A stretch of DNA of 64,000 nucleotides from the NCBI RefSeq assembly GCF_000378085.1, contig NZ_KB899220.1:1-64000 (forward strand). The letters run 5' to 3'. Numbering within the stretch: position 1 is the stretch's first letter; the number at the start of each line of letters is the position of its first letter. Of this stretch, positions 5,340-8,265 are shown in pieces. A program made the translations under genes and the position numbers. The DNA comes from Hoylesella loescheii DSM 19665 = JCM 12249 = ATCC 15930. GTDB taxonomy: Bacteria; Bacteroidota; Bacteroidia; Bacteroidales; Bacteroidaceae. The notes below the pieces were generated by a model that searched no databases, was not told the DNA's origin, and saw only the letters and a list, made by a program, of their open reading frames with translations.

Positions 5340-5816
5340 TTACTCCGAGAACTCTGCCCCTTCGTTTGTAGTAGTTGTCTCATTTTGTTTCATATCACTT
5401 ATCTTCTCTTCAGAGGCACACTCTTCCTTCGATATATCAGAATTGTTTTCTTCCACTACCTGTTCAGGCTTTCCACTTGAAGAAACCTCAGAGACAGCAT
5501 GCCCTTGATCTTTGTTCTGCTTCTTTACTTGATAATCTGATATTTTCCTTTTTTTCTTCTTCTTACTTCTTTTTATTTCAGTTTTTTGCTTTTCACTTTT
5601 TACATGTTTTTCCATCCGCTTTAAAATGAAAGGGCTGAAAAGAAAAATGATCGACATAAAAGCTACGACAATAAGGATTATATAGAGACATCCCCTTGGG
5701 GTTTTGCCCGCTACATTCCTGCTCCTTGCCATACTACGACATCTACCACAGCAAAAACCATCGTCCCACAGCCCGTCACCATCATATTCCTTTCCACAAT
5801 ATCTACACTTACTCAT
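5340..5816 (-). CDS. Membrane protein with N-terminal zinc ribbon and charged tail
   Basis: 158 residues. The N-terminus has a treble-clef-like CxxC..CCxxC cluster (CRYCGKEY.. FCCGRC, residues 4-26). One transmembrane helix follows at about 43-65, then a lysine-rich stretch (about 66-100) and an acidic, Ser/Thr-rich tail. The layout suggests a cytoplasmic zinc ribbon with an anchored extension. The family is not recognised. It is the last gene of a three-gene minus-strand unit (gap 120 bases to the upstream gene). Low-complexity tail and AT-rich codons point to accessory DNA. Confidence 0.7.
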   Translation of the reverse strand: MSKCRYCGKEYDGDGLWDDGFCCGRCRSMARSRNVAGKTPRGCLYIILIVVAFMSIIFLFSPFILKRMEKHVKSEKQKTEIKRSKKKKKRKISDYQVKKQNKDQGHAVSEVSSSGKPEQVVEENNSDISKEECASEEKISDMKQNETTTTNEGAEFSE

Positions 5817-6478: not shown

Positions 6479-7321
6479 TTACTTTATTAAGTTATTAAAA
6501 TTAGAGTGAATGTCATAGATGATTGCCTCAACATACCTATAATAGTCAGGCTTAGCCTTAGGATAGGCATTGGGATGGCAGGTACGGTAAGCGAGCTTAA
6601 CGCCAGGTATAGTAACCTTTGCTACATCATGTACGGGAAACTCACTAAAAGGAATAAAGTCTTCGTCTGTCAAACCAAAGCTTTCTTTGATGTAGGCATC
6701 ATAACGTCCTGTCAAGAAGAGAATGATGTCGGGATGAAGTATTTCTACTTCTTGAGCAATGACTCTCGAAAGGAATTGTCTTTCAATATTATGAGTATGG
6801 TTATCTACTGGCTTACCATCAATGGTAGATAGTTTGCTGATGTTATTCCACATACAAACTGTACGAAGTTTGGGATTAAAGGAGTGTACAATTTCATCAA
6901 GCTGGGACATAAAATTATTGATACCCTTAGCGTGGAAAGTGTTCTTTCGTCCTTTCTCATCAAAATACCACATGCCGTCATTGAGCGAATAATTGGTTGC
7001 ATAGAAGTTCTCATAAGCTGACATTATGGTTTCTACGGTCTCAGGTTCATCTCCTGTATAGAACTGAGATGCTGAGTTAAAGTCATCGCATCTATCAATG
7101 CCATACCATTTGTTAGGTTCTTGTCCGAATACCATCACCTTTAAGTCACTATTAGTATACCATTTTTCCGTAGGAACACCTCCCTCCCAATGGCAGGTTG
7201 ACAATAGGAAAGGATAACCTATACTAGTGCCCGACCTTTTTATTTCCCTACAGAACTTGTTCCAGTTGTCTTGATATAACTGTCTCAGACGTTCGTTTAA
7301 TAGTAGATTGTTCATGGTCAT
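6479..7321 (-). CDS. Uracil-DNA-glycosylase-like superfamily protein
   Basis: 280 residues, no signal peptide. The segment VMVFGQEPN (about 62-70) resembles motif A of uracil-DNA glycosylases (GQDPY). YRTCHPNA near 249 resembles the C-terminal HPS motif. Between them lies a Rossmann-like strand PDIILFLTGRYD. The usual catalytic Asp of motif A is Glu here, so glycosylase activity is uncertain; such divergent UDG-fold proteins can have other nucleic-acid roles. The assignment rests on motif reading only. A second Met two codons in is an alternative start. It heads a three-gene unit whose likely transcript starts at the -7 box at 7645-7652, through the structured RNA. Confidence 0.65.
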   Translation of the reverse strand: MTMNNLLLNERLRQLYQDNWNKFCREIKRSGTSIGYPFLLSTCHWEGGVPTEKWYTNSDLKVMVFGQEPNKWYGIDRCDDFNSASQFYTGDEPETVETIMSAYENFYATNYSLNDGMWYFDEKGRKNTFHAKGINNFMSQLDEIVHSFNPKLRTVCMWNNISKLSTIDGKPVDNHTHNIERQFLSRVIAQEVEILHPDIILFLTGRYDAYIKESFGLTDEDFIPFSEFPVHDVAKVTIPGVKLAYRTCHPNAYPKAKPDYYRYVEAIIYDIHSNFNNLIK

Positions 7322-7378
7322 TTGTCTTGACTAACAATTTATGCTAACTATTTCCCAGAAGTAAGCGGTTTAGTAAAT

Positions 7379-7640
7379 AGAAAAAGCGTGGGAACTATTG
7401 GATGTTGTCTTATCTGAGGTTCTGCAATACCCACTACCAAACAACAAACAATAGCCCACGCCGTGAGGTATATTATGCCCTTTGGTAAGGGTACAATAAT
7501 CCCAAGCGTGAGCGTACTGCCTATTGCCTTTGGTAGTTGAAATTTTGCAGATTTCAGATAAAAGACAATATATCAAACGCTCTTTTTGAAAGTTGAACTC
7601 TTTAGAACGCACACCTGCACACAGATGAACTAGAAATTCG
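7379..7640 (-). ncRNA. Structured RNA, long rod with terminator (6S-like or leader)
   Basis: On the minus strand a TACCTTTG -7 box precedes about 260 bases that fold into one long interrupted hairpin. Eight nested helices are visible, e.g. 7562-7566/7407-7411, 7555-7559/7412-7416, 7546-7550/7422-7426, 7529-7536/7434-7441 (8 bp), 7521-7526/7449-7454, 7506-7510/7457-7461, 7496-7500/7472-7476 and 7487-7491/7478-7482. An alternative helix (7386-7392/7455-7461 plus 7395-7400/7449-7454) directly precedes a T5 run and looks like a terminator; it competes with the rod. The overall shape recalls 6S RNA or the Bacteroidales-1 motif. It could also be an attenuator for the gene starting at 7321. The 95-codon frame through it is probably spurious. 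Confidence 0.65.
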
Positions 7641-7644
7641 GATA

Positions 7645-7652
7645 CAAAGGTA
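7645..7652 (-). promoter_or_regulatory. -7 box of the structured RNA
   Basis: Perfect minus-strand TACCTTTG; transcription would start near 7639. The -33 region is only T-rich. It is the only good promoter match found upstream of the 7321-5340 gene unit. Confidence 0.65.
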
Positions 7653-7851
7653 GACAAAATTTCTTATTAAATGTCTCTTTTTGTGCATAATTATATAAAT
7701 AAGACAAAAAAAACACATCAAAGAACACCATCCTTTATGAATAAGAGAATAATGACATTCTCAGAGATAAAGCCAACAGCAGACCGTCTAGGATATATTA
7801 GTGTATTGAAAATAAAGAAAGAGACAATTATCTAGGTATGGATTTAACAGC

Positions 7852-7973
7852 GCGAGTTCGGGATAAAACCCAATTGTTATGCCAACTGCCGCATAGCACT
7901 TGTTGGCGAGATTGTCATTGCTTTACTTGGCTTAGTCTTGTTCAAAAGTCATGGTATCTTATCCCGAACTCGC
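7852..7973. repeat. 15-bp inverted repeat enclosing an inner palindrome
   Basis: Perfect arms GCGAGTTCGGGATAA (7852-7866) and complement (7959-7973). The loop contains a second palindrome (GCCAACTGCCGC..TTGTTGGC). Related fragments occur near 25290-25380, 26780-26870 and 54370, so this is a member of a dispersed repeat family. The surrounding 7660-8265 has no gene. Confidence 0.7.
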
Positions 7974-8080
7974 CAATTAACCATTCCATCGGTCACGTTT
8001 TCATCGTTCCGAAAGTGCGCTTGCTAAGCCCTGATTATGCAATATTAGATTAATCGCCACGTTAAATGTATTTTGGACCG

Positions 8081-8167
8081 CTGTTCCAACTTATCTGGAA
8101 TGCTGTTCCAGTTGAATTGGAACACTGTTCCAACTTAGCTGGAACAGGAGTCCAACTTAGCTGTAAC
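8081..8167. repeat. 22-bp-period palindrome array, GTTCCA family (4 units)
   Basis: Four units of the form GTTCCA-N7-TGGAAC spaced exactly 22 bases apart with variable centres. Each unit can form a hairpin. The array lies beyond the der terminator. Related arrays are at 25809 and 44120. Confidence 0.85.
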
Positions 8168-8265
8168 AAGGCGAGAGCTGAAAAAACTCACTACAAGAGC
8201 TTATTGGGTGGCGAATGAAAAATGGCGTTTGGAGGTGGGAAATACACGTTCGCAAGATAAAACAA

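Follow-up and report, generated by a model that had tools for sequence, protein, structure and literature searches.

Our results demonstrate that a structured RNA encoded on the minus strand of the window, a stretch of 64,000 nt from Hoylesella loescheii, belongs to a large family of leaders in the Bacteroidota, in which promoter, leader and gene follow one another in the same order and the leader lies in cis to the gene behind it. The leaders have two mutually exclusive complete folds, each of which is under selection, with coevolution seen in both. Because evolution has kept both, the leader is probably an on/off switch controlling the gene that follows it; the genes concerned are many and unrelated, and most are surface or accessory genes. 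With moderate confidence, we regard the family as cis-acting conformational switches that attenuate transcription by means of the two folds.

The sequence-only reading of this DNA had described a -7 box followed by a long structured RNA, together with a mutually exclusive terminator-like helix ending at a run of five T residues. Both are present, and the features of the window copy are as follows.

7645 to 7652, minus strand: promoter -7 box TACCTTTG, which is CAAAGGTA on the plus strand.
7606 to 7630, minus strand: 5' hairpin in the GTTCATCTGTGTGCAGGTGTGCGTT region, which folds, is variable in sequence and is present in Prevotella-type relatives.
7574 to 7583, minus strand: strand A, AGAGCGTTTG, which pairs with strand 1 in fold II and, through its 5' edge, closes the fold I rod.
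7381 to 7583, minus strand: long rod of fold I, 5' arm with 3' arm, from fold prediction and covariation.
7539 to 7555, minus strand: local hairpin GAAAT-CTGCAAA-ATTTC, whose loop has a second partner, in the 3' arm, when the rod forms.
7506 to 7519, minus strand: strand 1, CAGTACGCTCACGC, the partner of strand 2 in fold I and of strand A in fold II.
7449 to 7461, minus strand: strand 2, GCGTGGGCTATTG, the partner of strand 1 in fold I and of strand 3 in fold II.
7415 to 7427, minus strand: TTGCAGAACCTCA, a conserved strand of the 3' arm that pairs with the hairpin loop and has an AGARCC bulge, near-invariant in alignment A1.
7386 to 7400, minus strand: strand 3, CAATAGTTCCCACGC, which pairs with strand 2 in the terminator-like helix and, through its TTCCCA, with strand 4 as well.
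7381 to 7385, minus strand: T5 run, with a U/C-rich tract in its place in relatives.
7343 to 7366, minus strand: 3' hairpin GCTTAC..GTTAGC, with strand 4, TGGGAA (7357-7352), as its loop.
6479 to 7321, minus strand: downstream gene for a 280-amino-acid UDG-superfamily-like protein (Pfam UDG, E value of 0.004, below the curated cutoff).
7370 to 7657, minus strand: 95-codon frame with a TTG start upstream of the -7 box, a mis-call.

In the order of the transcript, the complementary strands are A (AGAGCGUUUG), 1 (CAGUACGCUCACGC), 2 (GCGUGGGCUAUUG), 3 (CAAUAGUUCCCACGC) and 4 (UGGGAA), the last of which can form a pseudoknot with the TTCCCA of strand 3, before the T run. Transcription of the window copy is expected to start some 6 to 8 nt downstream of the -7 box, giving a leader of about 320 nt, and the conserved element reaches approximately position 7340, about 50 nt past the end previously given for it. 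The motif TAnnTTTG was found 230 to 279 nt before the 3' end of the rod in 50 of 60 homologues, at a constant distance. The T5 run itself is not conserved; homologues carry tracts with a mean T content of 0.65 in 10 nt, at least three consecutive T residues are present at the tract in 85% of them, and many copies have an imperfect tract, such as CUUCUUUAA. The 95-codon frame, already suspected of being a mis-call rather than a translated gene, is open in only 1 of 59 homologues and has no Pfam match.

The minus strand from 7644 to 7370 was predicted to fold at -96.2 kcal/mol, compared with -60.5 ± 4.2 kcal/mol for dinucleotide shuffles (z = -8.43), none of the 200 shuffles being as stable. The plus strand of the same stretch folds less well (z = -4.42), a value to be expected since the sequence is palindromic. 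When the terminator-like helix (7461-7449 with 7400-7386, followed by the T run at 7385-7381) was forced in the 318-nt leader, the energy was -86.1 kcal/mol, compared with -102.5 kcal/mol without forcing, so that the rod is favored at equilibrium, the difference in the nearest-neighbor model being about 16 kcal/mol. In 70 of 72 copies, the optimal structure predicted contains the rod pairing 1:2. As the rod is preferred in the model, a terminating fold II would need kinetic trapping or a stabilizing factor. Three diverged homologues, found by BLAST in 60 relatives and lying in different gene contexts, also fold beyond chance (z = -7.4, -9.7 and -3.3); two of them give the same rod, and L003 gives the alternative fold.

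The covariation among homologues on which the earlier reading had staked its helices was found for both folds. On alignment A1, 24 of the 35 pairs of the rod (which includes the hairpin-loop pairing, columns 19 to 25 with 179 to 185) have changed on both sides, a number reached by 0 of 500 shuffles and far above that of slid controls. On the longer alignment A4, changes on both sides were observed in 24 of 36 pairs for fold I, in 15 of 33 for fold II (A:1, UUAUCC:GGAUAA, GAAAU:AUUUC and 2:3), and in 4 of 9 for 3:4 plus its hairpin, again with 0 of 500 shuffles in each case; one of these last four pairs lies in 3:4 itself and three in the hairpin stem. Helix 2:3 was paired in 98.3% of the cells in the fold II test. 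In addition, partners were swapped among 57 copies, each less than 75% identical, a test that ignores kinship, for which the same-sequence controls compensate only in part. The z-scores were -11.9 for 2:3 (control, -0.2), -7.2 for 3:4 (control, -1.5), -12.4 for the self-pairing of the 5' arm (control, 0.6) and -7.2 for the local hairpin GAAAU with AUUUC (control, -1.9). A pairing of A with 3 was considered as the main helix closing the rod and was rejected, as its value is weak (z = -1.6). The strands share a GCG core, and some pairings could follow from others by transitivity; A:1, 2:3 and 3:4 each reach beyond this core. The covariation indicates that selection acts on base pairing and not on sequence.

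About 60 homologues were collected by BLAST and many more with a covariance model, R1, built from 43 sequences. Matches are present in 48 of 398 genomes of the genus, that of the window counted, and further copies were found in Bacteroides, Parabacteroides and Phocaeicola records. The search with R1 detected the family in 22 of 40 genomes of the genus. Within the order, 72 of 247 genomes and 55 of 174 genera carry it, a single genome holding as many as 8 copies. Among 198 genomes drawn from the phylum there are 12 carriers, all listed under the same class, and some other orders are represented; the counts from these larger searches are lower bounds, as the filters were strict. Exact-pattern scans of viral contigs yielded three loci, one of which is a mobile element with a tyrosine-integrase-like protein. 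At one locus (L093), two leaders lie on the same strand within 1.5 kb, each before a similar protein start (MIDAKKK.. and MIDTKEK..).

The earlier reading had left the choice between a 6S-class RNA and an attenuator acting in cis on the gene that begins at 7321, and only the second half of this alternative has stood. The relatives, about 150 in number, lie nearly always directly upstream of an open reading frame in the same orientation: the first downstream frame is co-oriented in 119 cases and opposed in 8, with a median gap of about 77 nt from the model core. An attenuator specific to UDG genes would be too narrow, since the downstream genes are unrelated, though UDG-like proteins occur twice among them (L014 and L120). 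Homologues of the UDG-like protein of the window are themselves rare (3 of 299 genus genomes), and the single one among the genome contigs (L001) has no obvious leader in the roughly 275 nt upstream. Many of the downstream proteins begin with a signal peptide or a lipoprotein start. Among 74 of them, eight are LRR_5 (BspA-type) proteins and, the UDG-like pair aside, other types are represented by one or two each, including AbiH, TerB, methyltransferase and HEPN-like proteins. A SusC-like start follows the leader at L169. The near-identical leaders L022, L038, L053 and L063 precede unrelated proteins, and at L034 and L050, which encode one protein family (44% identity), the leader has been kept though the RNA has diverged to 58%. 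No pathway or ligand common to these 74 proteins was found, and gene content thus cannot argue for a metabolite riboswitch. A defense-island explanation was also rejected, as the hits obtained with PADLOC are isolated and scattered.

Of the 16 copies in other orders of the class, 6 precede a gene for a SusC-like receptor (L183 to L185 and L187 to L189). The tracts there are strong, with six or seven U residues, and in some copies the receptor gene starts 250 to 600 nt further on. Outside the Bacteroidales, a small HTH-like gene is often located divergently upstream (L183, L184, L185 and L189). Several observations concern the neighborhoods of individual copies. In the window and in Parabacteroides distasonis (L044, NZ_OY725757.1), leader and gene follow era-der and share its orientation, and insertions may be frequent at the site after der. 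The window also encodes, two genes past the one for the UDG-like protein, a 158-amino-acid membrane-type protein (5340-5816) with a KwaA-like PADLOC match (E value of 0.00065 over 46 residues), which probably reflects only a transmembrane segment. In Bacteroides finegoldii (L045, 5773-5869), the end of a group II intron (RF00029) lies on the opposite strand directly behind a lipocalin-like gene.

Judged from sequence, the leader family probably acts as a transcription attenuator. Its mutually exclusive helices are conserved, one of them being terminator-like by sequence only and followed by an imperfect U-tract, and the element lies between a promoter and the gene that it would regulate. Transcription from the TAnnTTTG promoter would produce the structured leader, about 320 nt long here, before the start codon is reached. 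As the RNA emerges, fold II would form first: the 5' arm would fold on itself (A:1, UUAUCC:GGAUAA and GAAAU:AUUUC), and strand 2 would then pair with strand 3 just before the U/C-rich tract, forming a hairpin like that of an intrinsic terminator. We infer that this 2:3 helix ends transcription at the U-tract (OFF), and that refolding to the rod in the cell frees the gene (ON). In the rod, the 5' arm would pair with the 3' arm (1:2), breaking 2:3 and leaving strand 3 free to pair with loop 4, in the hairpin shortly before the start codon, and transcription would reach the gene. The balance between the folds would be set by some factor, and the signal may be a ligand, a protein, the ribosome or pausing of the polymerase. 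A wider form of this proposal is quite possible, and we put it forward tentatively: a widespread, uncatalogued class of bistable leaders, in which four to five interchangeable strands make up two complete folds that both covary, may serve as a general switch in the Bacteroidota for horizontally acquired and surface genes (lipoproteins, BspA-type proteins, SusC-like receptors and anti-phage genes), responding to one cell-wide signal and not to a pathway metabolite.

The main rival to attenuation is control of translation, in which the 3:4 pseudoknot and the rod would gate the access of ribosomes and 2:3 would be a folding intermediate rather than a terminator. The position of 3:4, 20 to 40 nt before the start codon, and its coevolution are in accord with such gating, as are the imperfect U-tracts and the rod as the predicted equilibrium form. 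However, 2:3 and a U-rich tract are kept in nearly all copies, and the covariation of 2:3 is as strong as that of the rod. We consider gating of translation through 3:4 rather unlikely, and transcription attenuation is preferred.

A self-standing, trans-acting small RNA of about 250 nt that ends at the U-tract, lies before genes by chance and is read through only incidentally is improbable. Such an RNA would have its own promoter and a terminator-like end, as is the case here, and the strong U-tracts and the distant genes in other orders would suit it. Against this stand the 119:8 bias in orientation, the near-constant distance to the start codon and the presence within a genome of several diverged copies that each have a gene of their own. 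Moreover, the conserved pairing 3:4 lies beyond the U-tract, beside the ATG, where it would be pointless for an RNA that ends at the U-tract.

More doubtful still is an element acting at the level of DNA, in the form of a mobile promoter or of a site for recombination or capture, the palindromes of which would serve a neighboring serine recombinase while unrelated genes are swapped in behind one leader. At 24 of 152 loci, the leader is immediately preceded by a co-oriented gene for a Resolvase-family recombinase and/or DUF3871 (L025, L027, L038, L042, L045, L058, L059, L062, L072 and L123 among them), recombinase fragments persist at L029, L030, L035 and L069, and L123 additionally carries a tyrosine-integrase-like protein and RadC. 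Leader-gene pairs are thus carried by mobile elements in some members of the family. Near-identical leaders before unrelated genes also favor a DNA-level element, as do three copies of one genome (G502; L165, L168 and L169), whose identity of 81 to 88% is confined to the region from about -120 to +240 relative to the core, corresponding to promoter plus RNA. However, most loci lack a recombinase, the covariation points to selection on pairing, and the promoter and the distance to the ATG have been kept. Gene capture could in any case be compatible with a regulatory role. A separate, dispersed repeat of about 325 bp adjoins the leader of the window (7850-8175); it contains a long inverted repeat and GGAACA/TGTTCC units, was scored in 40 full-length copies (82 to 87% identical) in this genome, where 228 first-look candidates make it probable that there are more than 40, and was not found in 39 relatives.

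A 6S-class RNA or a Bacteroidales-1 paralogue that sequesters RNA polymerase, suggested by the rod shape and the promoter type, is very improbable and was rejected, since no Rfam model matches, the family is multicopy and lies nearly always before genes, a competing second fold covaries, and Bacteroidales-1 has a locus of its own elsewhere in the same genome. With Rfam 15, including the 6S (RF00013) and Bacteroidales-1 (RF01693) models proposed for this comparison, no match was obtained at gathering or relaxed thresholds in window positions 7200 to 8200, even at an E value of up to 10; no match to the element appeared in 25 loci with relatives, and no credible relaxed match in three more stretches. 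The RF01693 locus lies at G000:C1:209830-210010 (149.8 bits), and the model was found in 30 of 35 other genus genomes searched (31 of 36 with its own).

If the attenuation reading is correct, one unrecognized RNA switch governs many accessory and surface genes in gut and oral Bacteroidota, a phylum in which, to our knowledge, few cis-regulatory RNAs are known. The covariation fixes the exact strands involved. The switch would also account for the spurious small open reading frames that overlap such leaders and would provide a handle for finding the signal. Since near-identical leaders are followed by unrelated genes, one may also ask how leader-gene pairs come to be assembled.

Among known systems, attenuators of the trp type and riboswitch leaders (1:2, 2:3 and 3:4) share the ordered, overlapping and exclusive pairings in a 5' leader, and intrinsic-terminator attenuators share the terminator-like hairpin with a U-rich tract. 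In contrast to trp-type attenuators, the leaders described here use four to five strands and two complete folds of about 200 nt, and no leader peptide was seen; as no ATG was visible by eye between the promoter and the rod of the window copy, attenuation by an upstream open reading frame was rejected for that copy. They also differ from attenuators and riboswitches in that the controlled genes have no common pathway and the family is absent from Rfam. 6S RNA and Bacteroidales-1 are likewise rod-like RNAs with a Bacteroidota-type promoter, whereas this family is multicopy and tied to a downstream gene instead of being a single stand-alone locus. RNAs of type III toxin-antitoxin systems do not fit, with no tandem repeat visible in the leader and unrelated downstream proteins. 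In the hok mRNA of hok/sok, the local hairpins at the 5' end are metastable and can rearrange into a long 5'-3' rod; here, by comparison, the leader precedes many unrelated genes, and neither a toxin nor an antisense partner was seen.

Three published sets of Bacteroidota elements bear some resemblance. Fremin and Bhatt (2021; PMC8040213) describe palindromic candidate RNAs, such as HMP2_4205 and HMP_4078, some with predicted terminators and near TPR or phage genes, and parts of the leader family may, as far as their descriptions go, be among these thousands of candidates. PINSR (PMC4755523) is a 188-bp intergenic repeat of Prevotella intermedia that is, by description and not by consensus, alike in being multicopy and overlapped by mis-annotated small coding sequences; it is set apart, again by description, by its 177 to 184 copies within one species group and by having no terminal inverted repeats reported. 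The Bacteroides-2 motif (PMC2864571), a noncoding RNA candidate in Bacteroides listed without an Rfam accession, differs by its description in being unaffiliated with mRNAs and was reported from one sequenced organism. A search of the literature, supplements aside, found no description of the leader family. The kind of element, a leader switch, is thus known; what is new, with PINSR, Bacteroides-2 and the candidates of PMC8040213 compared by description only, is a leader family with an unusual design of two complete folds.
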